Shown: positions 36,076 through 59,861 of the stretch, one piece after another
Numbering within the stretch: position 1 is the first letter of the stretch
How the letters are laid out: the number at the start of each line of letters is the position of its first letter
Source of the DNA: Myxococcus xanthus
GTDB lineage: Bacteria > Myxococcota > Myxococcia > Myxococcales > Myxococcaceae
Reading direction: 5' to 3'
DNA: 64,000 nt
Assembly (NCBI RefSeq): GCF_006402735.1
Contig: NZ_CP017174.1
Coordinates: 8,970,001 to 9,034,000, forward strand
Made by a program: the position numbers and the translations under genes
The notes under the pieces: generated by a model
What the model saw: the letters and a program-made list of their open reading frames with translations, nothing else
Databases searched by the model: none
Told to the model about the DNA's origin: nothing

Positions 36076-37557
36076 ATGAATGCCCTGCTGCTCGCAGCCC
36101 TGCTGTCCCACGCCTCCAGCCTCCTGCTGGCCCAGGCGGGCCCCGGCACCGACGCGGGCGTGGAGCCACCCGCGACCCGCGCTCCCGTCCTCTCCCCGGA
36201 GACACCCGAGCCGCCGCGGTTCCCGGTGTCCGACCCGCTGCTGGAGCCCATTCCCCCGGCCGAGATGCAGGTGGCGACCTGGGACGAGGCGCTGCACCTG
36301 CTGCGTCAACGCTCCACCAGCCTGTACACCGCGCTGGCCCAGGTGGAGTCCGCGGCGGGCGTGCAGCGAATCGCCCTGGCCGCATTGCTGCCCACGCTCA
36401 CCGGCACTGTCTCCGTCCAGTACAACGTGCTCAATCCCAACGCGACGCCGCTCCTGGGTGGTGGCGGCGGTGGCGGCGGCGGCGTGGGAGGCGGTATCGG
36501 CGGGGGCATTGGCGGCGACGTCGGAGGCGCCCAGTCACCGGGCCTCACCCGCCCGCCTTTCCTGGGACTGCTGAACGCCACCCAGCCCCTGTTCAACCTC
36601 CCGTCCATCATCGCGCTGGGCACCGCGCGCGAGGCCCGGCGCACCGCCAACCTGTCGCTGGCGGAGACGCGGCGCCAGCTCACCAGCGCGCTGGCCCAGT
36701 CACTGGTGCTCGTCGCCGCGCAGGAGCGGATGGCCGAGGTCAACCGCGTCAACCTGCGCACCGCCCTGGAGCGGCTGGCCCTCACGGAGCGCCGCTTCGA
36801 GCTGGGCGCGGGCACGCGGCTGGACGTGGTGCGCGTGCAGCAGGACACGGAGACGGCGCGCAACCTCGTCGTCCTGGGGGACGAGACCCTGCGCAAGGCC
36901 CGTGAGACGCTGGGACTGGTGCTGGGCATTCCTCAAGGCGTGGGCCTGGTCCGGGGCGTCCAGTTGGAGACCCTGCTCCAGCACTCGCGGCGGGACTGTC
37001 AGCAACTGGAGTCGCTCGACCGGCGCGCGGACATCGCGGTGGCGCGCTCGCGGCGCACGCTGGCCGAGCGGCAGGTGTCGGAAGTGAAGGCGCGTTATGC
37101 CCCGACGCTCGCGCTGACCAGCACCACCCTGGCCCTCACCGTGGAAGAGGGCTTCGTGACGGTGCCGGTGTGGAACATCGGCGCCAGCCTGGTGCTGCCC
37201 TTCTGGGATGGCGGCGCGCGTGAGGGCCAACTGTGGCAGACGCGCGCGGGCGTGGAGGTGGCGAAGCAGGGGCTGGTGGAGCTGGAGCGCACGGCCTCGG
37301 TGGAGGTGCTGCAGGCACGGCGCGCCGTACAGGTGGCGGACGCGGCCGCGCGCATCGCGGGCCGGGGACGCGCCCTGGCCGAGGAGAACGACCGGCTCAC
37401 CCGGCGCAGCTTCGAGGTGGGAACGGGAACCAGCCTGGAGCTCATCCAGACAGCGTCGGACCTCCGCCAGGCGGAGTTGCTGCTGGTGGTGCGCGAGTTC
37501 GAGCTGGAGCAGGCGCGGGTCGCGGCGTTCCTCACGGAGGCGGCATGCGATTGGTGA
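36076..37557 (+). CDS. TolC-family outer-membrane efflux protein
   Basis: 493 residues from the ATG at 36076. Signal peptide to about LLLAQA. Two TolC halves are visible: helices such as WDEALHLLRQRSTSLYTALAQVESAAG, and the conserved RFELGAGTRLDVVRVQQD and SFEVGTGTSLELIQTASDLRQAELLL. Unusual is a Gly run between about residues 130 and 155, with nine consecutive Gly and then GG[VID] units, in the region of a barrel loop. First gene of the efflux operon; its end overlaps the adaptor gene by 13 nt. Confidence 0.9.
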   Translation: MNALLLAALLSHASSLLLAQAGPGTDAGVEPPATRAPVLSPETPEPPRFPVSDPLLEPIPPAEMQVATWDEALHLLRQRSTSLYTALAQVESAAGVQRIALAALLPTLTGTVSVQYNVLNPNATPLLGGGGGGGGGVGGGIGGGIGGDVGGAQSPGLTRPPFLGLLNATQPLFNLPSIIALGTAREARRTANLSLAETRRQLTSALAQSLVLVAAQERMAEVNRVNLRTALERLALTERRFELGAGTRLDVVRVQQDTETARNLVVLGDETLRKARETLGLVLGIPQGVGLVRGVQLETLLQHSRRDCQQLESLDRRADIAVARSRRTLAERQVSEVKARYAPTLALTSTTLALTVEEGFVTVPVWNIGASLVLPFWDGGAREGQLWQTRAGVEVAKQGLVELERTASVEVLQARRAVQVADAAARIAGRGRALAEENDRLTRRSFEVGTGTSLELIQTASDLRQAELLLVVREFELEQARVAAFLTEAACDW

Positions 37558-38702
37558 GGACGTGGAGCACGGGGCTCGCCGTACTGCTCCTCGCGGGCTG
37601 CCGCTCGCAGGGCGACTCGGGGCCGCAGGGGGGCCAAGCGGCCACGAACCAGCCCATGCCGGTGGAGGTGGAGCGCCTGGTCCCCGCCGAGGTGCGCGAG
37701 TCCAACGAGTACCTGGGCGCGCTCATCTCCCGCAGCAGCATCACCGTCTATCCGCAGGTCGCCGGCTACGTGAAGGCGATTCCGCTCGAGCCGGGAGCAC
37801 GCGTCGAACAGGGGGAAGTGCTGCTCGTGGTGGACCCCCGGCGAGAAAGCGCGGGCCTGCGCGCCACCCAGGCGCAGCAAGCCGCCGCCATGGCGCAGCG
37901 AGAGTACGCCCAACAGACGCGCAAGCGCAGTGAGCAACTGCTGAAGGAGGGACTCCAGAGCCGCCAGGACTATGACCAGGCGGTGGCGCAGGCACTGCAA
38001 GCCGAGGCCAGCGCGCGCGCCATCGAAGCCCAGGTGCAGGCCCAGGAGGTCCAGCTCGGCTTCTACGAAGTGAGCGCGCCCTTCGCCGGCATCGTGGGCG
38101 ACTACCCGGTGAACGTGGGCGACTTCGTGACGCAGCAGACGGCCCTCACCACACTGGACCAGAGCAACACGCTGGAGCTGTCCGTCCAGATTCCCGTCGA
38201 GCGGGCAGGCACCGTCCGGGTGGGCACCACGCCAGTGGAGGTGTTGGACCCAGAGGGCCGGCTCGTGGTGTCGGCACCGGTGTTCTTCGTGGCGCCCACG
38301 CCCAACGCCACCACGCAGTTGGTGGAGATACGCGGTGTCTTCGAGAACACCGTGGGCCTGCGCGCCGGACAGTTCGTGCGCGCCCGGGTCGTCTATGCCA
38401 CGCGGGAGGCTCTGCGCGTCCCGACCTCCGCCGTCACCCGCATCAGCAGCCAGTCCTTCGTCTTCGTGGTGCAGGACTCGGACGCGGGCACCGTGGCGCA
38501 GCGGGCGCCGGTGAGCCTGGGCCTCGTCTCCGGCAATGACTACGAGGTGACGGGCGGACTGGACGCGGGCACGCCCGTGGTGCTCAGCGGCATCCAGATG
38601 CTCCGCGATGGCCAGCCCATCCAACCCAAGGCCCCCTCGCGCAAGCCACCTCAGGGCGTGGGCGGCAGCGGGACCGACGGCGGCACCCCGCCGGCACAGT
38701 GA
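37545..38702 (+). CDS. RND efflux periplasmic adaptor (membrane fusion lipoprotein)
   Basis: 385 residues from the ATG at 37545, inside the end of the TolC gene. Lipobox LAGC near residue 19. The HlyD/AcrA layout is present: lipoyl-like half YPQVAGYVKAIPLEPGARVEQGEVLLVVD, alpha-hairpin (RESAGLRATQAQQAAAM to ASARAIEAQ), second lipoyl half with YEVSAPFAGIVGDYPVNVGDFV, beta-barrel and membrane-proximal domain (VLSGIQMLRDGQPI). It bridges the RND pump and TolC. Nine bases separate it from the pump gene. Confidence 0.92.
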   Translation: MRLVRTWSTGLAVLLLAGCRSQGDSGPQGGQAATNQPMPVEVERLVPAEVRESNEYLGALISRSSITVYPQVAGYVKAIPLEPGARVEQGEVLLVVDPRRESAGLRATQAQQAAAMAQREYAQQTRKRSEQLLKEGLQSRQDYDQAVAQALQAEASARAIEAQVQAQEVQLGFYEVSAPFAGIVGDYPVNVGDFVTQQTALTTLDQSNTLELSVQIPVERAGTVRVGTTPVEVLDPEGRLVVSAPVFFVAPTPNATTQLVEIRGVFENTVGLRAGQFVRARVVYATREALRVPTSAVTRISSQSFVFVVQDSDAGTVAQRAPVSLGLVSGNDYEVTGGLDAGTPVVLSGIQMLRDGQPIQPKAPSRKPPQGVGGSGTDGGTPPAQ

Positions 38703-38711
38703 GGGGCCGCC

Positions 38712-41700
38712 ATGTTCACCGACTTCTTCATCCGCCGTCCCGTCTTCGCCAGTGTGGTGTCCATCATCATCACCCTGGTGGGGGCCATCTCCATCCCCAA
38801 CCTCCCCGTCGAGCAGTACCCGGACCTGTCCCTGCCCGTGGTGCAGGTGACGGCGACGTACATCGGCGCCTCCGCGGAGACAGTGGAGAGCGCCGTCACC
38901 ACCGTGCTGGAGCGGCAGCTCAACGGCGTGGAGGGCATGCGTTACATCGCCTCCACCAGCAGCAACACGGGCGTGAGCACCATCACCGTCACCTTCGACC
39001 CGGGACGGGACTTGGACATCGCCGCGGTGGACGTCCAGAACCGCGTGGCCACCGCGTCCGCGCAGCTCCCGGCCGCCGTCAACGCGCTGGGCGTCACCAT
39101 CACCAAGGCCCAGACGCAGCTGCTCATCGCCTTCGGCCTGTTCGACGAGGAGAACCGTTACGAGACGGGCTTCCTCAGCAACTACGCGGACGTCTTCATC
39201 CGGGACGCGCTGCTGCGCGTGACGGGCGTGGGCGACGTGCGGATTTTCGGTGAGCGGCGCTTCGCCATGCGGCTGTGGCTGGACCCCACGGAGCTGGCCC
39301 GGCGCGGGCTCGCCGCCACGGACGTGGTGAACGCCCTGCGCGCGCAGAACGTTCAAATCGGCGCCGGACAGGTGGGCCAGCCGCCCGCGCCGCCGGGACA
39401 GACGTATCAGTTCACGGTGCGCGTGCTGGGGCAGCTCACGTCGGCGGAGGAGTTCGGCAACATCGTGGTGCAGCAGGGGCCGGACGGCTCGCTGGTGCGG
39501 CTGAAGGACGTGGGCAGCGCGGAGCTGGGCGCGGAGAACTACGGGCAGCTTCTGCGCTTCAACGGCCGCGAAGCCGTGGGCCTGGGCATCTTTCAGCTCC
39601 CCGGCTCCAACGCGCTGGACGTGCGCGACGGCGTCGTCGCCGAGCTGGAGCGGCTCAAGGGAAACTTCCCACCAGGAATGCGCTATCAGCGCGCCTTCGA
39701 CACCACGGCGGCGGTGCAGGCCTCCATCGAGGAGGTGCTGGTGACGCTGGGCGAGGCCATCTTCCTGGTGGTGCTGGTCATCTTCATCTTCCTGCACGGC
39801 TGGCGCAGCGTGCTGGTGGTGGCCACCACGCTGCCCGTGTCGCTGGTGGGCACCTTCCTCTTCGTCAACGCGTTCGGCTTCTCCATCAACACGCTGACGC
39901 TCTTCGGCCTCACGCTGGCCACGGGGCTGGTGGTGGATGACGCCATCATCGTCATCGAGAACGTCGAGCGCACCATGGAGCAGGACAACGTGGGCCCTCG
40001 CGAGGCCACCCACCGGGGCATGAAGCAGGTGGCCGGCGCGCTGGTGGCCATTGCCCTGGTGCTGTCCGCGGTGTTCGTGCCGGTGTCCTTCTTCCCCGGC
40101 ACCACCGGCATCATCTACCGGCAGTTCGCCCTCACCCTGGCCTTCTCCATCAGCCTGTCCGCGCTGGTGGCGCTCACCCTGTCCCCCGCGCTGTGCGCCA
40201 TCCTGCTGCGGCCCCACGAAGGCCAGAAGTGGAAGGTCTTCCGCATGTTCGACCGGGGGCTCGACGCGTTCCGAGACGCCTACGGCCGGATGTTGGCGAA
40301 GCTCATCGGACCGCTGCGCTGGCCGGTGGTCATCGCCTTCGTCGTGTGTCTGGCCGGCACCATCCTGGTGTACCGCCTCACGCCCACGGGCTTCATCCCA
40401 GGCGAGGACCAGGGCTACCTCATCATCGCCGTGCAGGGGCCGGAGGGCACGTCGCTGGACTACACGCGCAATGTGCTGCTCCAGGCGGAAGACGTGCTGC
40501 GCCAGCAGCCGGAGGTCGCGGGCATCTTCACCGTGGGCGGCTTCTCGCTGCTGGGCACGGGCGTCAACTACGGCACCCTCTTCGTCAACCTGCACCTATG
40601 GGATGAGCGCAAACGGCCGGACCAGAGCGTGGCGGGACTGGTGGAGCGCCTGAGACGTCCGCTGAGGGCCATTGGCGGCGCGCGCGTGTTGCCCTTCGAG
40701 CCCCCCGCCATCCGCGGCGTGGGCAGCGTGGGCGGCTTTGAGTTCGTGCTGGAGGACCAGCAAGGTGGCCGAACGCTCGCTCAGCTCGCGCAGACGACGG
40801 ACATGCTGGTGGGCGCGGCCAGCCAGGACCCGGGCCTGCGCGGCGTCTTCTCCTCATACACAGCGAACACGCCCCTCCTGGACGTGCAGGTGGACCGGGA
40901 GAAGGCCCTGGCGATGGGCGTCCCGCTGGATGGCGTCTTCTCTACGCTGCAAGTCTATCTGGGCAGCCAGTACGTGAATGACTTCACCTTCGCCAGCCGC
41001 GTGTACCGCGTGTACGTGCAGGCCGCCGTTCCGTTCCGCAACGAGCCACGCGACATCGACGCGCTCTACGTCCGCTCCGCGAAGGGAGAGATGGTGCCGC
41101 TGGAGTCGCTGGTGCAGGTGCGGCCCATCACCAGCGCGCAGAACATCCAGCACTACAACCTGTACCGCTCGGCGACCATCAACGGGCAGGCCGCGCCGGG
41201 CTCCAGCTCCGGGCAGGCCCTGGACGCGATGGATGCGGTGGCGCGCAAGACGTTGCCCGTGGGCTACACCTTCGAATGGACGGGCCTGTCTCAGGAGCAG
41301 CAGGAGGCGGGCCGCAGCGTGCTGCTCATCTTCGGGCTGGGCGTCGTCTTCGTCTACCTGGTGCTGTCCGCGCAGTATGAGAGCTTCGCCCTGCCCCTGG
41401 TCATCCTCCTGGGCGTCCCCGTGGCCATGCTGGGCGCGCTGGGGCTGCAGAATTTGCGCGGCCTCCAGAACGACGTGTTCTGCCAGGTCGGGCTCGTCAT
41501 GCTGGTGGGTCTGGCCAGCAAGAACGCCATCCTCATCGTCGAGTTCGCCGAGCAGCTCCGCCACGAAGGTCGGAGCGTCGTGGACGCCGCCATTCACTCC
41601 GCCCAGACGCGCCTGCGGCCCATCCTGATGACGTCCTTCGCGTTCCTCATGGGCGTGGTGCCGCTGATGCTGGCCTCGGGGGCGGGGGCCTCCGCGCGCA

Positions 41701-41873
41701 AGTCCCTGGGCACCACCGTGTTCGGCGGCATGCTGCTGTCCACCTTCGTGAACCTCATCTTCATCCCCGTGCTGTACGTGGTGCTGGAGACCGCCAGGCT
41801 CCGCGTCCGCCGGCATGGCGATGTCAACACGCCACCGCCCTCCGTCCGCCCACCGGAGCCCCACACACCCTGA
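38712..41873 (+). CDS. RND multidrug/lipophile efflux permease, HAE1 family
   Basis: 1053 residues, full length for AcrB/MexF-like pumps. It starts MFTDFFIRRPVFASVVSII, the usual first helix. The TM4 proton-relay Asp pair is in GLVVDDAIIVIEN (about 415), and FFPGTTGIIYRQF and LASKNAILIVEFAEQL are family motifs. Two large periplasmic loops follow TM1 and TM7. It should expel amphipathic compounds by proton exchange through the adaptor and TolC. The next gene, a lipid-related patatin, follows after 69 bp on the same strand. Confidence 0.95.
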   Translation: MFTDFFIRRPVFASVVSIIITLVGAISIPNLPVEQYPDLSLPVVQVTATYIGASAETVESAVTTVLERQLNGVEGMRYIASTSSNTGVSTITVTFDPGRDLDIAAVDVQNRVATASAQLPAAVNALGVTITKAQTQLLIAFGLFDEENRYETGFLSNYADVFIRDALLRVTGVGDVRIFGERRFAMRLWLDPTELARRGLAATDVVNALRAQNVQIGAGQVGQPPAPPGQTYQFTVRVLGQLTSAEEFGNIVVQQGPDGSLVRLKDVGSAELGAENYGQLLRFNGREAVGLGIFQLPGSNALDVRDGVVAELERLKGNFPPGMRYQRAFDTTAAVQASIEEVLVTLGEAIFLVVLVIFIFLHGWRSVLVVATTLPVSLVGTFLFVNAFGFSINTLTLFGLTLATGLVVDDAIIVIENVERTMEQDNVGPREATHRGMKQVAGALVAIALVLSAVFVPVSFFPGTTGIIYRQFALTLAFSISLSALVALTLSPALCAILLRPHEGQKWKVFRMFDRGLDAFRDAYGRMLAKLIGPLRWPVVIAFVVCLAGTILVYRLTPTGFIPGEDQGYLIIAVQGPEGTSLDYTRNVLLQAEDVLRQQPEVAGIFTVGGFSLLGTGVNYGTLFVNLHLWDERKRPDQSVAGLVERLRRPLRAIGGARVLPFEPPAIRGVGSVGGFEFVLEDQQGGRTLAQLAQTTDMLVGAASQDPGLRGVFSSYTANTPLLDVQVDREKALAMGVPLDGVFSTLQVYLGSQYVNDFTFASRVYRVYVQAAVPFRNEPRDIDALYVRSAKGEMVPLESLVQVRPITSAQNIQHYNLYRSATINGQAAPGSSSGQALDAMDAVARKTLPVGYTFEWTGLSQEQQEAGRSVLLIFGLGVVFVYLVLSAQYESFALPLVILLGVPVAMLGALGLQNLRGLQNDVFCQVGLVMLVGLASKNAILIVEFAEQLRHEGRSVVDAAIHSAQTRLRPILMTSFAFLMGVVPLMLASGAGASARKSLGTTVFGGMLLSTFVNLIFIPVLYVVLETARLRVRRHGDVNTPPPSVRPPEPHTP

Positions 41874-41942
41874 GTGCTGACCAGGAGCCTGAGGGGCCCC
41901 TGGATGCCCCGCCGGAGGGGCTTCGTTATCCTGCGGGGTGCC

Positions 41943-43805
41943 ATGTCTCACTTCCCGTCACGCGACGACCGGCGGCGCCAGCGGCTGTATGCGCTCAAGC
42001 GTGCGCCCGGGCTCCGTCACCATGGCAACACCGCGCTGCTCCAACTGCTGGGCAAGGGCCAGGACGTGTCCTGGGCTCGCGGCCAGGTGCTGTGCCGGGA
42101 AGGCGAGCCCCCCGAGGGCTTCTCCCTCCTCCTGGAGGGCGAGTTGGAGGTCATGCGCGGTGACGCGCTCCTGATGACGCTCCAGCCCGGTACGCCCCTG
42201 GGACTGGAGGCGCTGTCGAGCGGCAGCAACGCCTTCACCATCCGCGCGACGACGGACTCCGAGGGCCTCTTCTTTCCGAAGGACGCTGTCGCGAGCCTGC
42301 TGCACGCGCCCACCGGCGTGCAGGAGCGGCCCCGTCCGCCAGCGGAGGTCATCGCCTTCGAGAGCAACGTGCGCGGCGCGCCCCTGGCCTCCCTCATCGA
42401 GCTGGTGGCGAAGGTCATCCACCGCGACTTCGGCGACCGCGTGCTGCTGCTCCGGAGCGCACCGGGCGGGCATGACGCGCCCGTCACGAAGGGGGCGGAT
42501 GGCGTCCTGCGCGCCACGCTGCCTCCAGCTGAAGCTGGCGGTCCCGGCCTGCTGACCCCATCGGTGCTCCAGCGGCTCACGGCCGAGCACGGCCTCCACT
42601 ACGTCCTGCTCGACGGCTGCGGCGTGGCGGACGTCGGGATGACAGGCAAGACGGCGCGGCTGGTGACGACGCTGGACGCGCGGCAGACGTCGGCTCCTCG
42701 CGTGCTTCCCACCGTGGTGGTGGACCCCCGCCGTGCGTCACGCGAATCAGCGCTGAGTGGCCAGTCCCTGCATCCCCAGTGGCTGCCGCCCTGCCCCTTG
42801 CGGTTGAGCCTGGACAGGATGGCGCGGGTGCTCGTGGATGACCGACCGCTGGACACCACGATGCTGAGCCCCGCCGAGCAGGACGCCCTCTCCCGCTGGG
42901 CCCGAGCCCTCACCCACCGGCGCGTGGGCCTGGCGCTCAGTGGCGGTGGCGTGTGGGGCTTCTACCACGTCCACATCCTGCGCTGGCTGGTGAGCCAGGG
43001 CGTGCCCATCGACATCGTCAGCGGCGCCAGCATGGGCTCGCTGGTGGGCGCGTACTTCTGTGGCAGCGCGCTGGATGGGCACGACGGACTGGAAGGACTG
43101 CGACGGCTGGAGGAGCGGGCCATGAGCCGGCAACTCACCCTGGCCGCCACGGCCGCCATCGTGACCACGTATTCGCTGGAGCGCTTCGTGGAGCAGGACC
43201 TGGGCCGGCTCTGCCTGGAGGAGCTGGCCATCCGCTTCCTGCCTGTCACGACGGACCTGACCAGCGGAGACTGCGTGGCGCTGGAGCAGGGGCCGGTGGC
43301 CCTGGGGGTGCGCGCCAGCGGCTCGGCGCCGGGTATCTGGGGCCCCACGGTGGTGCCTCCCGCGCGGTACGTGGACGGGGCCTTCACCAGCATGGTTCCC
43401 GCGCACGTGCTGTTGAATGCGGGCGCGGACGTCATCTTCTCCAGCAACATCTTCCCCTTCGGCGTCCGGCATGCGTCCCCTCAGCGGCGGTCCGGCCTGG
43501 GGCGCTTCCTGGCGGGACTCAATCCGGTGGCCCGCGCGCTGGACCTGGCGGCCAGTGGCGTGCTGCTATTGCACCGCAGTGGTGACGTGGAGAGCCTGCT
43601 CGCGGACGTCCGCTACGACATCCAATCCGCGGAGGCACCGCTGCTGACCGCCATGGAGTTCACCAAGGCCCGGGACATCCTCGGACGGGCGGCGGCGGAT
43701 GCGTCGCTCGCGAAGCGGCTGGAGGAGATGAAGCAGCACTGGCTCCAGGTCAAGGCCCGGGGTGCCCGTGCCCACGCGCATCCAGGAGGACAGCAAGCCG
43801 CATGA
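41943..43805 (+). CDS. patatin-like phospholipase with N-terminal cyclic-nucleotide-binding domain
   Basis: 620 residues from the ATG at 41943. Residues about 30-115 form a cNMP-binding-type beta roll (QVLCREGEPPEGFSLLLEGELEV, TPLGLEAL), but the phosphate-binding Arg cassette is not obvious. A middle region of about 200 residues resembles the linker of NTE/YchK-type enzymes. The patatin domain (about 320-560) has oxyanion loop LALSGGGVWGFYH, nucleophile GASMGS and catalytic Asp in VDGAF. It should hydrolyse phospholipids or lysophospholipids. Its stop overlaps the KAS III-like start by ATGA, tying it to lipid metabolism. Confidence 0.9.
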   Translation: MSHFPSRDDRRRQRLYALKRAPGLRHHGNTALLQLLGKGQDVSWARGQVLCREGEPPEGFSLLLEGELEVMRGDALLMTLQPGTPLGLEALSSGSNAFTIRATTDSEGLFFPKDAVASLLHAPTGVQERPRPPAEVIAFESNVRGAPLASLIELVAKVIHRDFGDRVLLLRSAPGGHDAPVTKGADGVLRATLPPAEAGGPGLLTPSVLQRLTAEHGLHYVLLDGCGVADVGMTGKTARLVTTLDARQTSAPRVLPTVVVDPRRASRESALSGQSLHPQWLPPCPLRLSLDRMARVLVDDRPLDTTMLSPAEQDALSRWARALTHRRVGLALSGGGVWGFYHVHILRWLVSQGVPIDIVSGASMGSLVGAYFCGSALDGHDGLEGLRRLEERAMSRQLTLAATAAIVTTYSLERFVEQDLGRLCLEELAIRFLPVTTDLTSGDCVALEQGPVALGVRASGSAPGIWGPTVVPPARYVDGAFTSMVPAHVLLNAGADVIFSSNIFPFGVRHASPQRRSGLGRFLAGLNPVARALDLAASGVLLLHRSGDVESLLADVRYDIQSAEAPLLTAMEFTKARDILGRAAADASLAKRLEEMKQHWLQVKARGARAHAHPGGQQAA

Positions 43806-44770
43806 TTCCCGTTCGCATCCTGGGCACCGCCAGTGTCCTTCCCGGCCCCGCAGTGACGACCGCGGAGCTGTGCGCGCGCGTGGGACGTGACGCCGCGGAG
43901 GTGGAACGGAAGACAGGCATCCTCACCCGCCACTTCGCGCCACCAGGGACGAAGGCCGCGGACGTGGCGGCACAGGCGCTGCGGGGCGCGCTGGACGCGG
44001 CGGGGCTGGAGGCCCGGGCCCTGCGCCGAATCCTCTGCGTCACCTCCATGGGCGGCGACGTCACCACGCCCGCCACCGCCAACCGCGTGGCCGCGGCGCT
44101 GGGCCTGTCGGGAAGCTGCGACGCGATGGACCTGAGCAACGCCTGCATGGGCTTCCTGAGCGCCTTCGACCTGGCGGCCCGCTCGGTGGCCACGGGGCTG
44201 GGGCCGGTGGGCATCGTGTCGGTGGAACTGCTGTCGCGCACCACCACGCCCGAGGAGCCCCGCCCCTACCTGGTGCTGGGCGACGCCGCCGCCGCCGCCG
44301 TGATGGGCACGGGCCGTTCGGGAGAAGGCGTCCTGGGCGTGGCCCTGGGCAATGACGGCACGCTGCCCACGGACGTGGTGCTGGAGAACCCGACGGCCAC
44401 CGGCAAGCTGGAGCGGATGCGCTTCCTGACGCCCAGCCAGGAGATGACCCGCGTCGCGCTGGGCGCGCTGGTACGGGCGGCGCGCGCGGCGTTGGACGAG
44501 GCGGGCGTGGCCCTTCGCGACGTCGAGTGGGTGCTCACGCACCAGCCGAATGGCAGCATGCTGGAGGCCATCCTCCAGGCGCTGGAGGTGTCACCGGAAC
44601 GCAGCGTGCGCGTGGTGGACACGGTGGGCAGCGTGGGCTCGGCCTCGCTGGGCACCAGTCTGGACCGGCTGCTGCGCACGCGTCCGGTGAAGCCAGGGCA
44701 CCGCATCCTCCTGGTGGGCGTGGGCGCGGGCGTGGCCCACGGCGCGGTGCTGTACCAGGTGGGCGGATGA
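43802..44770 (+). CDS. 3-oxoacyl-ACP synthase III-like protein
   Basis: 322 residues. Thiolase fold of the FabH group: catalytic Cys in LSNACMGF (about 116), His in LTHQPNGSM (about 244) and C-terminal GVGAGVAHGAVLYQ. The third catalytic residue, Asn in the usual GNTSAAS, is replaced: this protein reads VGSVGSAS. With Cys and His but not Asn, it may transfer acyl groups without normal decarboxylative condensation. ATGA overlaps with both neighbours show tight coupling. Not next to acpP, fabD or fabG, so unlikely to be the housekeeping FabH. Confidence 0.88.
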   Translation: MIPVRILGTASVLPGPAVTTAELCARVGRDAAEVERKTGILTRHFAPPGTKAADVAAQALRGALDAAGLEARALRRILCVTSMGGDVTTPATANRVAAALGLSGSCDAMDLSNACMGFLSAFDLAARSVATGLGPVGIVSVELLSRTTTPEEPRPYLVLGDAAAAAVMGTGRSGEGVLGVALGNDGTLPTDVVLENPTATGKLERMRFLTPSQEMTRVALGALVRAARAALDEAGVALRDVEWVLTHQPNGSMLEAILQALEVSPERSVRVVDTVGSVGSASLGTSLDRLLRTRPVKPGHRILLVGVGAGVAHGAVLYQVGG

Positions 44771-45537
44771 AACAGGCGGGCGGTTGGCCCCTGACGGCAT
44801 GGCTGACCACGTTCCGGCTGCTGCGCCGGTATCACCGCTACGAGGTGGTGAACCTGGAGCCGCTGCTCCGTCCCGGCGCGAAGCTCATCGTCGGTTACCA
44901 CGGGCGGCCCCTGGCCGTGGACCTGTGCATGCTGACGGTGACGCTCCACGAACGCCTGGGCTATCTGCCGCACGGCGTGGCGCACGGCGCGTTCAATTCA
45001 ATTCCGGGCATGCGCACGGTGGCGGACGGGCTGGGCTTCGTCACGGGGGATGACCCGCGGCTGGCGGAGGCGGTGGCGCGCGGCGAGCACGTGTTGTTGC
45101 AGCCAGGAGGCACGCGCGAGGGCTGCCGTGACTTCCGCCACCGCTACCGCGTCGACTGGGGCGAGCGCATGGGCTACCTGCGCCTGGCGGTGCGCTACCG
45201 GCTGCCGATTGTCCCCGTGGGCGGCAGCGGCATGGACGACGCGTACGTGGGCCTCAACGACGGGTACGCGCTCGGCCAACGGATGGGGATGCCCGCGCGG
45301 CTGCCGCTGTGGCTGGGCGTGGGCGCCACGGGCCTGTGGCCCTTGTCGCTTCCCTTCCCCGTGAAGATGACGCAGTGGGTGGGCGAGCCGCTGACGCGCC
45401 ACCTGGAGCCAAACTTCGACGCGGGCAACCGGGACGCGATGCGAGCGGTGCATCAGGAAGTGGCGGACGCGGTGCAGGGGCTGCTCGACAGGGCTCGCGA
45501 CGTGGACAAGGGCAGCACACGGAAGGCGGTGCAATGA
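44767..45537 (+). CDS. lysophospholipid/glycerol acyltransferase-like protein
   Basis: 256 residues. PlsC/DGAT2-like: the catalytic His-Asp is in GYHGRPLAVDL, where His and Asp are six residues apart instead of four (canonical HX4D). LLQPGGTREGCRDF corresponds to the phosphate-binding block 3, and RYRLPIVPVGGSGMDD to block 4. A short amphipathic N-terminus could bind membrane. It should esterify an acyl chain to a lipid or alcohol. Placed between the KAS III-like and SDR genes, both joined by ATGA overlaps. Confidence 0.82.
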   Translation: MKQAGGWPLTAWLTTFRLLRRYHRYEVVNLEPLLRPGAKLIVGYHGRPLAVDLCMLTVTLHERLGYLPHGVAHGAFNSIPGMRTVADGLGFVTGDDPRLAEAVARGEHVLLQPGGTREGCRDFRHRYRVDWGERMGYLRLAVRYRLPIVPVGGSGMDDAYVGLNDGYALGQRMGMPARLPLWLGVGATGLWPLSLPFPVKMTQWVGEPLTRHLEPNFDAGNRDAMRAVHQEVADAVQGLLDRARDVDKGSTRKAVQ

Positions 45538-46361
45538 GGGAAGGTGAGGGTTCCGAGGCGCGACAGTGGGCGCTCATCCTGGGAGCTTCGTCTGGCACGG
45601 GCGCGGCCATCGCGGAGGCGGTGACTCGGAAGCCCGGGTTGAATGTCTTCGGTGTCCACCGGGGCCGGTACGCGGAAGGTGCCGTGCAGTTGGAGCAGCG
45701 GGTGCGGGACGCCGGTGGACTCGGTGTGATGTGGCAGGCGGACGCGTCGTCTCCAGAGGCTGCTGAGGCAGGCGTGGCGGCGCTGCGGGAAGTCGCCGGG
45801 CCCCGGAGCGTGAAGCTCTTCGTGCATTCGATTGCGGGGGCATCGGTGGGGCGATTCCTGTCCGAGGGCGAGGACCGGCTGCACGCGCGGCGCATCCGCC
45901 GGACCTTCGACACGATGGCGCACTCGTTTGTCTTCTGGGCGCAGGCCCTGGTGAATGAAGACATGTTGGCGCCGGAGGCCCGGCTTCTCGGTCTACAAAA
46001 CCCGCTGGATGAAACGCACCTGGGGAACACAGGACTCATCAGCGCGTCGAAGGCGGCGCTGGAGATGTACGTGCGCTACCTCGCCATGGAGCTGGGCCCG
46101 CGAGGACACCGCGTCAACCTGCTGAAGTTCGGCACGGTGATGACGCCCGCGCTGAAGCACGTGTACTCGCCCGGGGCCCTGGCGCGCCTGGAGGCGGCCC
46201 ACGCGAGGATGAATCCCGCGGGACGCATGGGCACCGTGGAGGACGTGGCCCGCTTCGTCACGGTGCTCGCCGGCGAGGAGGCGGGCTGGTTCAACGGCGC
46301 CACCATCGACTTCACCGGTGGGATGACGCTGCGGCTGTTGGACCTGGTGCTGAATCCGTGA
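45534..46361 (+). CDS. enoyl-ACP-reductase-like SDR lacking the usual Tyr
   Basis: 275 residues. Rossmann start ALILGASSGTGAAIAEA; SDR core with VHSIAGAS. The segment around ISASKAALEMYVRYLAMELGPRG, then PALKH and NPAGRM, resembles FabL-type enoyl reductases. The catalytic Lys is kept (SASK), but neither YxxxK nor YxxxxxxK is present: Ile and Thr stand at those places. Activity may be altered. It closes the seven-gene efflux and lipid cluster and is followed by a terminator hairpin. Confidence 0.82.
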   Translation: MREGEGSEARQWALILGASSGTGAAIAEAVTRKPGLNVFGVHRGRYAEGAVQLEQRVRDAGGLGVMWQADASSPEAAEAGVAALREVAGPRSVKLFVHSIAGASVGRFLSEGEDRLHARRIRRTFDTMAHSFVFWAQALVNEDMLAPEARLLGLQNPLDETHLGNTGLISASKAALEMYVRYLAMELGPRGHRVNLLKFGTVMTPALKHVYSPGALARLEAAHARMNPAGRMGTVEDVARFVTVLAGEEAGWFNGATIDFTGGMTLRLLDLVLNP

Positions 46362-46365
46362 GGTC

Positions 46366-46395
46366 AGCCCTGTCCGATGGCCGAGAGACAGGGCT
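46366..46395. terminator. hairpin closing the efflux/lipid cluster
   Basis: AGCCCTGTC (46366-46374) and GACAGGGCT (46387-46395) pair perfectly around a 12-nt loop, four bases after the SDR stop and ahead of the converging methyltransferase gene. Confidence 0.65.
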
Positions 46396-46431: not shown

Positions 46432-47300
46432 TCAGGCCCGTGCGTCTTGCTCCGGCATCCGGAACGACAGACAGTAATAAAACGGCGCCACCTGCTCCTC
46501 GGTGACGTCGAACGCTCCCGGAGGCAGCAGCTCCCGGGGGCAGCGTGGCTCCCACGAGTAGAACGTCATCGCGCGGAACGCGGCGCGCTGGAACAGCGAG
46601 GGCCGGAAGGCCGGGTCCATCTGCTCGTCCACGACCACCAGCGGCGTGCTCGGCTTCGCCACGCGCGCCATCTCCGCCAAAGCCCGCTCGGGTGCCCGGT
46701 AGCCGCCAATGCCGCCCACGTGAAACACCCGGTCGAACGACGCATCCGGGAACGGCAGCGCGTGCGCATCCGCCATCATCAGCCGCACGCCCGCATAACC
46801 TCCAGACCGCAGCCGCCGCTTGCAGTGCTTGAGCATGCCCCCGCTCAGGTCCACGCCCCACACGTCCACGTCGAGCCCCGGCGGCAAGCCATCACGCAGG
46901 AGCGGCAGGTTCGCCCCCGAGCCCACGCCCACCTCCAGCACCCGCACCGGGCTGCCGTCCTCGTGCGGCGTCAGCGCGCCGAGCTCCACACGGCGCATGT
47001 ACCCCGCGCGCATCCGCGCTTCCGAAACGGATTGAAACAGCGGCGTCAGCAGCGTCGTCAGCGGGTCATGCAGCACCGGGAGCCCATCGTAGATGACGCG
47101 CATCAGCCGGTCCGTACCGCGCACCGCGTCCTCGCGATACAGCCGCGCCATGCCCCGCGCCACGCTCCACGCCTCGCCGCATCCACCGCAGCGCAGCCAC
47201 CCGTCGCGGATGCAGCCATCCGCCTCGAGCCCGTGGAACACCAGCGCCCCACCACAGGCCGGGCACGACAGCAACGCCACGTCCCGGACACTCACACCGT

Positions 47301-47304
<4 letters not shown>
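46432..47304 (-). CDS. class I SAM-dependent methyltransferase with N-terminal zinc-ribbon-like motif
   Basis: 290 residues. The N-terminus has two Cys pairs (CPACGGAL near 14 and CGGCGEAW near 39), like a Trm112-type zinc ribbon. The methyltransferase domain follows: motif I VLEVGVGSGANLPL (about 121), acidic VWGVDLS, ADAHALPFPDASFDRVF and a post-motif region. It resembles the UbiE/Methyltransf_11 group. Its ATG overlaps the stop of the large kinase gene (47301-47304), so it is translated from the same message. Substrate unknown; a small molecule or lipid is likely for this group. Confidence 0.88.
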
Positions 47305-56812: not shown

Positions 56813-59800
56813 TTACTCAACGCCTTTCGGCATCACGGCGAGCGGGACCGCGCATCATCGGCGACGCCAAGGTGGACGGACTGTGCTCAACGCCTTTCGG
56901 CATCACGGCGAGCGGGACATGCGCGCCGTCGCCGCCTTGCCCAACTCCTCCATCTCGGGTGCTCAACGCCTTTCGGCATCACGGTGAGCGGGACCTCATC
57001 GCGCCACCATCAACGCCACGACAGGGTAGTGCTCAACGCCTTTCGGCATCACGGCGAGCGGAACCAGCACCACCGTGGCCTCGAAGAAGCCCTTGGTGAA
57101 GTGCTCAACGCCTTTCGGCATCACGGCGAGCGGGACCTCTGCCAGCGCCTGGAGCAGGCGAACAGCGGCAAGTGCTCAAAGCCTTTCGGCATCACGGCGA
57201 GCGGGACGTAGCAGTCCTCCCAGTTGGTGACGAGCTTGTCATAGTGCTCAACGCCTTTCGGCATCACGGTGAGCGGGACTGAAGAAGGGCCAGCGCATCA
57301 CCGAACATCAGGCCGATGTGTGCTCAACGCCTTTCGGCATCACGGCGAGCGGGACGATGACCCAGGCTGCTCTCGCAGACATCGCCCGTGGTGTGTGCTC
57401 AACGCCATTCGGCATCACGGCGAGCGGGACGTCGGTGTGCTGGCGCTGTATCACGGCGGCACCCTGAACTTGTGCTCAACGCCTTTCGGCATCACGGCGA
57501 GCGGGACGATGGACTCCACGAGTCCGGCCGGCGCGTTGAAGGGGTGCTCAACGCCTTTCGGCATCACGGCGAGCGGGACGGGGCCATGTTGGCGCCACTG
57601 CGGCTGCAGCAGGGGTGCTCAACGCCTTTCGGCATCACGGCGAGCGGGACGGGCACTGGCTTGACGCGCTCGCGCTGGAGGTCCGGTGCTCAACGCCTTT
57701 CGGCATCACGGCGAGCGGGACAACGCGGAACCATCAGAATGCCGCAGGTGCCTGAGAAGTGCTCAACGCCTTTCGGCATCACGGCGAGTGGGACTGACCT
57801 CCAAGTGGTGTGCGGAAGCGTATGAACGGTGCTCAACGCCTTTCGGCATCACGGCGAGCGGGACAGATGCACTCAAGCCACATGAAGCGGCGTATGACTT
57901 GTGCTCAACGCCTTTCGGCATCACGGCGAGCGGGACAGATGCACTCAAGCCACATGAAGCGGCGTATGACTTGTGCTCAACGCCTTTCGGCATCACGGCG
58001 AGCGGGACCCAAGAGGTGACGCTGCGCCAGGGGCTCCTGGGGTGCTCAACGCCTTTCGGCATCACGGCGAGCGGGACGCGCGGCGTCGGCGTCGGCAAGT
58101 TCGCCGTCGAGCAGATGTGCTCAACGCCTTTCGGCATCACGGCGAGCGGGACGTGGCCTCCGGTGTCCCCTGATTCTCTTCGGCGTGCTCAACGCCTTTC
58201 GGCATCACGGCGAGCGGGACCCATCATCCGCAACAGCATTTCCCAAAGGAGCGAGCAGTGCTCAACGCCTTTCGGCATCACGGCGAGCGGGACCCCCTGG
58301 ATGCCCGCCCCGAGGTACGGCAGGAAGTGCTCAACGCCTTTCGGCATCACGGCGAGCGGGACCCGCAAGGTGCCCCAGCGCCTGCGCAAGCTGCTCGTCA
58401 AGTGCTCAACGCCTTTCGGCATCACGGCGAGCGGGACCCCGAGCTGTACCTGCGGGACCGCGAAGGGGCCACGTGCTCAACGCCTTTCGGCATCACGGCG
58501 AGCGGGACAGGTGGTGCAGGGCGACCAACGCGGCTGGAAGTGGGTGTGCTCAACGCCTTTCGGCATCACGGCGAGCGGGACGGAAAGCTGCTGCCCACTA
58601 CCCCGATGCTCAACTGTGCTCAACGCCTTTCGGCATCACGGCGAGCGGGACCTTGAAGATGTTCAGGATGGGCACGTCAACGAGGAGTGCTCAACGCCTT
58701 TCGGCATCACGGCGAGCGGGACAGGCGGATTCACTCGCCGCTGGACGCGCGCAGACAGTGCTCAACGCCTTTCGGCATCACGGCGAGCGGGACACGTCAC
58801 GCACTGACACACTTCCGAATGCGGGTGCTCGTGCTCAACGCCTTTCGGCATCACGGCGAGCGGGACGGCCCGCGCCTTTCATCGAGAAGGCCATGGCTGG
58901 GAGTGCTCAACGCCTTTCGGCATCACGGCGAGCGGGACACGTCCTGCATGCCGTCCTGAAGCACTGGGGCGCCGTGCTCAACGCCTTTCGGCATCACGGC
59001 GAGCGGGACAGGGCGCGGCGTTGCTGTCGTACCGCGCGCTCGTGTGCTCAACGCCTTTCGGCATCACGGCGAGCGGGACTCTCGCCCGTCTTCCCCTCGG
59101 CCAGGGACTCCAGGTGCTCAACGCCTTTCGGCATCACGGCGAGCGGGACCCCCTACGCGCTCTTGATGGAGGCGCTGGACATCAAGTGCTCAACGCCTTT
59201 CGGCATCACGGCGAGCGGGACGAAGCACATCCGCCGCGCCGCCGAAGAGGTTCGAGACGTGCTCAACGCCTTTCGGCATCACGGCGAGCGGGACGATGCT
59301 CCCTGCGCTACGTGAGCGCCGGCCCCGAGGTGCTCAACGCCTTTCGGCATCACGGCGAGCGGGACCTTGACCCGGAGGGTGTTGAATTCGGAGTGCTAGA
59401 GTGCTCAACGCCTTTCGGCATCACGGCGAGCGGGACCTGGTGGCTCAGGTGCGGGCTGAGGTGGCTGGGAGTGCTCAACGCCTTTCGGCATCACGGCGAG
59501 CGGGACTCCTGTGCGTTGCGTTGCTGTTCAGCTAGTCGCGGGGTGCTCAACGCCTTTCGGCATCACGGCGAGCGGGACAACCTCCCGGAGGTTGCGTCCG
59601 CCCGCGAGCGCATGTGCTCAACGCCTTTCGGCATCACGGCGAGCGGGACGCCTGGACGCGCGCGGTGTCATACATCCACCGTGTGCTCAACGCCTTTCGG
59701 CATCACGGCGAGCGGGACGGTCGTAGACTTGGCCGATTGAACAGTCCTGTCCCGTGCTCAACGCCTTTCGGCATCACGGCGAGCGGGACCTGGCACCTCT

Positions 59801-59861
59801 GCCGCTGCGCGGTGGACCTGCGAAAGTGCTCAACGCCTTTCGGCATCACGGCGAGCGGGAC
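56813..59861 (-). CRISPR. CRISPR array: 43 repeats of 36 bp, 42 spacers of 32-41 nt
   Basis: Plus-strand repeat begins GTGCTCAACGCCTTTCGGC and ends ATCACGGCGAGCGGGAC; the repeat RNA is probably the complement, beginning GTCCCGCTCGCC. Repeats start every 69-77 bp from 56813 to 59826. Variants are confined to the left end: first repeat (TTA for GTG at its start), third and seventh (GTGAG), fourth (GGAAC), sixth (CAAAG), ninth (GCCATT) and fourteenth (GAGTGGG). Repeats 15-43 are identical by eye. The old, trailer end is therefore at 56.8 kb and the leader at 59.9 kb, next to cas2. Spacers 15 and 16 are identical. Confidence 0.98.
57865..57972. repeat. tandem duplication of one spacer-repeat unit
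   Basis: Spacers 57865-57900 and 57937-57972 are the same 36 bases, beginning AGATGCACTCAAGCC and ending GCGTATGACTT, on either side of a consensus repeat. Confidence 0.97.

Follow-up and report, generated by a model that had tools for sequence, protein, structure and literature searches.

A lipid-acting operon and its neighbouring multidrug-type efflux pump in Myxococcus xanthus

We analysed a window of 64,000 nucleotides (positions 8,970,001-9,034,000) of the 9.3-Mb single-contig genome of Myxococcus xanthus, whose nearest relatives are Myxococcus species. On its + strand, the genes for a TolC-family protein, a periplasmic adaptor and an RND permease are followed by four genes for lipid-acting proteins, namely a patatin, a ketoacyl synthase III (KAS III)-fold enzyme, an acyltransferase (AT) and a short-chain dehydrogenase/reductase (SDR). 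The original prediction took these seven genes for a single module that makes and exports an acylated lipid or remodels membrane lipids. The explanation that we lean towards, with modest confidence, is that they form two adjacent, separable units: an HAE1 pump that is older than its present address, and an ancestral Myxococcaceae lipid operon with a probable promoter of its own and an acyl-lipid role. A single make-and-export module is not established, and the association amounts at most to a lineage-specific partnership. All seven open reading frames are intact and stand in the predicted order, and their family assignments were confirmed by domain searches. Searches of a library of open-licence papers by locus tag and keyword found no description of the operon; the original prediction likewise did not recognise a described pathway.

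Distribution of the lipid core and its linkage to the pump

In a survey of 195 Myxococcota genomes, AT orthologs were taken at ≥54% identity and their neighbourhoods were mapped with all seven proteins. Such orthologs were found in 58 genomes. They are present in every genome of group g1 (27 genomes; the genus of the window, with named Myxococcus and Pyxidicoccus), of g5 (two) and of g6 (16; Corallococcus), and further in seven genomes of g8, three of g3, one each of g7 and g9, and in genome G016, which lies outside the class. The gene order is far from random: 29 genomes keep it for all seven genes, and 16 Corallococcus genomes for six of them, the SDR being displaced there by 2.6-7.3 kb through inserted genes while pump, patatin, KAS and AT remain together. 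The core proteins KAS, AT and SDR share ~60-99% identity across several genera, and 39-56% in one more distant genome.

The pump genes immediately precede the patatin gene in every genome of g1, g5 and g6 (45/45) and in none of the other 13 core-bearing genomes, so that the exporter is not kept wherever the biosynthetic genes occur. Relatives lacking the pump genes had been named beforehand as evidence against a single module, and these 13 genomes, with no linked pump, are of that kind. In g8 and g9, a patatin of 26-35% identity precedes the KAS gene, and the ATGA overlaps are retained in the pump-less loci L054 and L082. We considered whether this patatin is an unrelated replacement and dropped the idea, as a reverse search returned the window patatin as its sole match in the genome (35%). 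It is more likely a fast-evolving ortholog; between Myxococcus and Corallococcus the patatin shares 48-50% identity, and KAS 75-82% over the same comparison. In g3, g7 and the distant G016, KAS, AT and SDR are present and an adjacent patatin is absent, with KAS additionally missing from L078. Because g8 and g9 hold the patatin-KAS order without a linked pump, the patatin-KAS-AT-SDR unit is older than the pump's arrival and an ancestral Myxococcaceae operon.

The pump in turn occurs without the operon. Seventeen genomes of g3, g7, g8 and g9 carry its ortholog on its own at a separate chromosomal location (73-79% identity; the genome's paralogue has 64%). Eleven pump-less core genomes hold it at another site, and six genomes without the core hold a solitary pump (G063, G064, G065, G091, G093 and G094). 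Among the 18 unlinked pump loci examined, 17 contain the ortholog, and the remaining one (L116, 66%) falls beside the paralogue in the tree. Each of these loci is an operon of adaptor and RND genes, in most cases with a TolC gene that can be recognised, and none has an adjoining patatin, KAS, AT or SDR gene. In a maximum-likelihood tree of RND permeases, all 45 linked pumps fall together in a clade (SH-aLRT 98) that leaves the unlinked pumps outside, and the linked or unlinked state changes once on the tree, compared with 15.8 times in shuffles. Since the linked pumps form one clade, the parsimonious reading is that pump and lipid operon were joined once, in the ancestor of g1, g5 and g6.

Several further observations were made on the surveyed loci. 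One scan of GTDB genomes with strict DNA patterns returned near relatives only. A record titled Comamonas sp. KCTC 72670 (L037, BNCN01000005.1) carries the locus at 74-93% identity in the Myxococcus gene order; it is probably Myxococcus under a wrong label. A second AT-SDR pair without KAS is present in Corallococcus sicarius (G083, L079:3147-14540), at the end of a same-strand run of EthD, Nif11, alpha/beta hydrolase and GMC oxidoreductase genes that is possibly a biosynthetic cluster. In most Corallococcus loci, a gene of ~755 amino acids without a Pfam match is inserted between AT and SDR (L041:12468-14735), surrounded by DUF2378-like genes. A carboxymuconolactone-decarboxylase/AhpD-like gene stands beside the core in two distant pump-less loci (L057:10679-11143 and L078:11365-11919).

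The pump-patatin gap and the class of the pump

The 69-bp gap between permease and patatin was aligned over the 45 linked loci, with 40 distinct sequences found by pattern and five further loci by eye. All 45 share a hexamer of the form TAWYHT, which in the window is TATCCT (41927-41932); its end stands 10 or 11 nt ahead of the patatin ATG. This spacing is fixed though the flanks vary between genera and the gap exceeds 330 nt in L091. A second, partly conserved stretch lies 17 nt upstream of the hexamer, and its A-T pair (-21, -20) carries 1.2 and 1.5 bits. Because part of the pattern was preset by the search, conservation figures inside the eight-base element give no independent evidence; the fixed spacing does. 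Only one of 500 other ATG-start genes in the examined loci has TAnnnT at the equivalent offset; the exact string of the element is unique in the genome and in that form is not a common genome-wide motif. The element is probably the promoter of the lipid operon, with a very short leader or perhaps none, and its conservation suggests that the operon starts its own transcript. A promoter or terminator in this gap, together with unrelated expression, had also been named beforehand as an observation at odds with a single module. The conserved promoter-like element would supply the promoter part of this; the terminator-like match at 41906-41921 was rejected, being weak against shuffles (seven found in the region, 3.1 with a standard deviation of 2.0 expected) and having a stem that is not kept in other genera.

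In Pyxidicoccus-type loci (L034, L035, L038 and L088-L090), an inverted repeat of 7-9 bp, partly preserved by paired changes, flanks the hexamer; it is absent from the window. The displaced SDR gene of Corallococcus is preceded by TATGAT 9 nt before its ATG (5′ sides of L041:15924, L042:16850, L044:17962 and L046:18395), as if it had gained a short-leader promoter of its own. In g8 and g9, a sigma-54 activator gene lies divergently upstream of the operon (identified in L082:8317-10071, with genes of similar size in L054, L056, L075, L080 and L083), and regulation of the lipid operon may therefore differ in these groups.

The permease scores 1278.6 bits against NF000282 (cut-off 1250) and 1257.6 against TIGR00915 (cut-off 940). 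The adaptor and TolC parts of an HAE1 efflux system accompany it, and the solved structures nearest to it are those of multidrug pumps, MexB and AcrB among them. The proton-relay residues (DD, K and R) appear intact in LVVDDAIIV, ASKNAIL and LRPILMTS, as read from the translation rather than from a position-by-position alignment. Judged by its sequence, the pump belongs to the HAE1 multidrug type and is not an HpnN/MMPL lipid exporter.

These results bear on a lineage-specific version of the original prediction, in which Myxococcus, Corallococcus and one further genus recruited the pump as exporter of the lipid that the four enzymes make. The same-strand adjacency of pump and patatin has been kept in 45/45 loci of a single clade despite growth of the gap and rearrangement on both sides, and because it has held while neighbouring adjacencies break, the pump may export the operon's product in the linked lineage. 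We nevertheless rate this account as somewhat unlikely, given that 13 genomes have the core and no linked pump and six have the pump and no core, that the operon has a separate promoter-like element, and that the pump belongs to a multidrug class. The pump's HAE1 class, and the fact that each unit also occurs independently, argue against a defining role in export, and since the units separate and were joined once, their neighbourhood alone is no proof that the pump exports the product. What remains of the predicted module is thus a lipid-acting operon that is stably paired with the pump in one lineage.

The explanation by two separable units has points to answer as well. The pump-patatin adjacency is steadier than two others nearby, that between AT and SDR, which is lost in Corallococcus, and that between SDR and the downstream methyltransferase gene, which is lost in several loci; this hints at a working link in the linked lineage. 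Moreover, a promoter consensus scan gave no match in the pump-patatin gap, and the gap promoter is inferred from sequence.

The four lipid-acting proteins

Aligned with E. coli FabH (1hn9), the KAS III-fold enzyme has Cys115 at Cys112 and His247 at His244, and Ser277 at the position of Asn274. All three residues are invariant in 55/55 orthologs, down to 39% identity, so that the Cys-His-Asn triad of FabH is absent throughout. This is not an alignment artefact, because a like alignment of the paralogue L127 from the same genome, used as a control, recovers Cys-His-Asn. In FabH, the malonyl-derived enolate is stabilised by Asn274 and His244 (PMC10054515). PqsBC was considered as a precedent for an enzyme lacking the Asn and was set aside, since the papers searched did not bear it out. 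The score against the curated FabH family is 161.6 bits (cut-off 292.1), and a profile search found that no operon protein reaches the curated FabH or FabL cut-off. Among the close FabH-like paralogues of the genome, only L127 keeps Cys-His-Asn; the best FabH-profile match (L125, G000:C1:257825-258805) lacks the canonical His and Asn (TQLN, GYTG), and it is not obvious which enzyme primes fatty acid synthesis in this genome. We also considered whether the KAS gene is MXAN_7353, of a DigR-regulated operon (PMC3509222), and dropped this assignment, as a KAS III-like gene at G000:9145846 fits the number better by position.

The SDR retains GASSGTG, an FVHSIAG stretch and Lys173, and its model has a classical SDR fold (pLDDT 84; FabL 3oid, TMt 0.85). 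The catalytic tyrosines are missing. Asn156 and Thr166 occupy the positions of Tyr146 and Tyr156 in FabI numbering, so that the Y-x6-K pair of FabL and FabI is reduced to its lysine, and Ile169 replaces the tyrosine of the classical Y-x3-K motif. Tyrosine is absent from these positions in 52/52 orthologs. The KAS III-like and FabL-like calls of the original prediction thus hold for the folds, and fail for the catalytic residues that define those chemistries.

These substitutions bear directly on a conventional fatty-acid priming and elongation set, in which KAS III would condense with malonyl-acyl carrier protein, the SDR would reduce and AT would acylate glycerol phosphate. Family-level likeness to FabH, FabL and PlsC is what commends it. 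We consider it very improbable, as Asn274 of FabH is Ser in 55/55 orthologs, the FabI/FabL and classical SDR tyrosines are absent in 52/52, the FabH and FabL cut-offs are not reached, L127 elsewhere in the genome keeps Cys-His-Asn, and the operon contains neither a dehydratase nor an acyl carrier protein (ACP).

The patatin dyad Ser376/Asp491 (numbered in the gene call used for the ortholog alignment) and GGG are invariant in 52 orthologs, giving a Ser-Asp dyad with a glycine-rich oxyanion loop. The prediction of a cNMP (cyclic nucleotide)-binding patatin holds for both domains, which were detected, and not for the contacts with cAMP. In a by-eye alignment to CRP, hydrophobic or variable residues stand next to Gly100 and at 109, and the phosphate-binding Glu and Arg are missing. 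Because the cassette lacks phosphate-contact residues, regulation of the patatin by cAMP is unlikely.

The acyltransferase call was upheld by structure: the Pfam score is 20.0 against a cut-off of 23 bits, yet the AlphaFold2 model (pLDDT 82, pTM 0.83) matches PlsC (5kym, 5.4e-6), GPAT1 (6.5e-6) and PatA (8.8e-6) in Foldseek, with probability 1.00, and has the lysophospholipid acyltransferase (LPLAT) fold. The H-x4-D motif is absent; H45 and D52 are conserved with six residues between them. By its motifs, the enzyme is presumably nearer to PGGxRE-type DGAT2/TMEM68 enzymes.

With patatin and AT retaining catalytic motifs and KAS and SDR losing hallmark residues, the operon might serve phospholipid repair or stress, KAS and SDR being a non-catalytic scaffold or sensor for a deacylation-reacylation cycle run by the other two. 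The ATGA coupling, which suggests a fixed stoichiometry, would suit such an arrangement. It seems to us unlikely, as Cys115 and His247 of KAS and Lys173 of the SDR are invariant, suggesting that some catalysis is retained.

Returning to an acyl-lipid operon separable from the pump, its products could act as follows. The operon is translationally coupled through its ATGA overlaps and probably read from its own gap promoter, perhaps also by read-through from the pump genes. At the inner membrane, the NTE (neuropathy target esterase)-like patatin would free a lysolipid or an acyl chain. The KAS-fold enzyme would load an acyl group on Cys115 and hand it over; as Ser replaces the Asn that stabilises the enolate, this transfer would probably not involve malonyl decarboxylation. 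The PlsC-fold enzyme would esterify the acyl group to a lipid acceptor. The SDR-fold protein would bind NAD(P) and act by non-classical chemistry or as a partner subunit. The net outcome would be the remodelling or synthesis of an acyl (membrane) lipid. Gene content, coupling, conservation, active-site residues, folds and the separate histories of the two units are established by the analysis; the order of steps, the product, the activity of the promoter and any export are inferred. A bolder proposal, of a Myxococcaceae-specific lipid built by the Cys-His-Ser KAS and the Tyr-less SDR, fed by the phospholipase and exported by the adjacent RND pump in Myxococcus and Corallococcus, we regard as decidedly doubtful.

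Gene layout, neighbours and comparison with known systems

Positions of the features are given in Table 1. The three predicted ATGA overlaps, patatin/KAS, KAS/AT and AT/SDR, are exact (at 43802, 44767 and 45534), and the TolC and adaptor genes share a 13-nt overlap that is kept in most linked loci. The hairpin predicted to close the cluster exists as a 9-bp stem (46366-46374 with 46387-46395). A role as a terminator is not shown and was rejected, as the stem has no T-run and its folding energy is like that of shuffles (z 0.45). The neighbourhood of SDR and methyltransferase recurs in the pump-less loci L053, L075, L076, L077, L080 and L081, and in L057, and the methyltransferase is a possible functional partner of the lipid operon. 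Elsewhere in the window, a long gene-free stretch of lower G+C is explained by a CRISPR array at 56813-59861, with 43 repeats (Rfam CRISPR-DR23) and a period of ~71 bases.

Table 1. Features of the locus, in window positions
Feature	Position	Strand	Basis
TolC-family outer-membrane efflux protein (pump unit)	36076..37557	+	Pfam OEP 1e-35
RND periplasmic adaptor, lipoprotein	37545..38702	+	RND_mfp 3.6e-66, above curated cut-off; HlyD/RND_mfp; LLAGC lipobox
HAE1-type RND permease (AcrB/MexB class)	38712..41873	+	ACR_tran E=0; NF000282; TIGR00915
Promoter-like element, pump-patatin gap	41904..41932	+	ATGCCC 41904-41909, 17 nt, TATCCT 41927-41932, 10 nt to patatin ATG 41943
NTE-like patatin phospholipase, one degenerate cNMP domain	41943..43805	+	Patatin 2.4e-26; cNMP_binding 3.4e-12
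KAS III-fold enzyme, Cys115-His247-Ser277 active site	43802..44770	+	ACP_syn_III_C 2e-22; alignment to FabH 1hn9
PlsC/PatA-fold acyltransferase (AT), motifs YHGRPxAxD, PGGTREG	44767..45537	+	AlphaFold2 and Foldseek
FabI/FabL-lineage SDR without catalytic Tyr (Asn156, Thr166, Ile169, Lys173)	45534..46361	+	adh_short_C2 1.3e-31; FabL alignment
9-bp inverted repeat between convergent SDR and methyltransferase genes	46366..46395		sequence
S-adenosylmethionine (SAM) methyltransferase, convergent neighbour	46432..47304	-	Methyltransf_11 4e-17

The core is conserved across several genera of lipid-rich predatory bacteria, yet matches no curated pathway enzyme. Annotation of its KAS and SDR as 'FabH' or 'enoyl reductase' would mislead, because the two enzymes keep the folds but carry fixed, lineage-wide changes in their active sites. 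Genomes with core and pump, core alone or pump alone offer a natural experiment on whether a stable neighbourhood reflects export of a product.

Among known systems, the KAS shares its fold, nucleophilic Cys and conserved His with FabH, ChlB3 and CerJ. ChlB3 is a KAS III-fold acyltransferase that uses another triad, and the third residue, Ser in the window enzyme, is Asn in FabH and Asp in the Cys-His-Asp triad of ChlB3 and CerJ (PMC9573744). The SDR resembles FabI and FabL in its classical fold, GASSGTG cofactor motif, FVHSIAG, Lys173 and match to FabL 3oid, and differs in having other residues in place of the two FabI tyrosines and of the Y-x3-K tyrosine. AT agrees with PlsC and PatA in its Foldseek fold and its H...D and GGTRE motifs, whereas it has H-x6-D instead of H-x4-D and a Pfam score below the cut-off. 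The patatin follows the plan of neuropathy target esterase, a cNMP domain and a middle segment before the patatin dyad, but with one cNMP domain without cAMP-contact residues and with GGGVWG instead of GGGARG. The pump matches AcrAB-TolC and MexAB-OprM in having all three parts, a permease above the HAE1 cut-offs and those pumps as nearest solved structures; unlike them, it adjoins a lipid operon in one lineage. Aryl-polyene and xanthomonadin clusters likewise combine a ketosynthase, an acyltransferase, a reductase and an exporter, whereas the window locus is distinguished from them by having no ACP, dehydratase, KAS II-type synthases or MMPL exporter.

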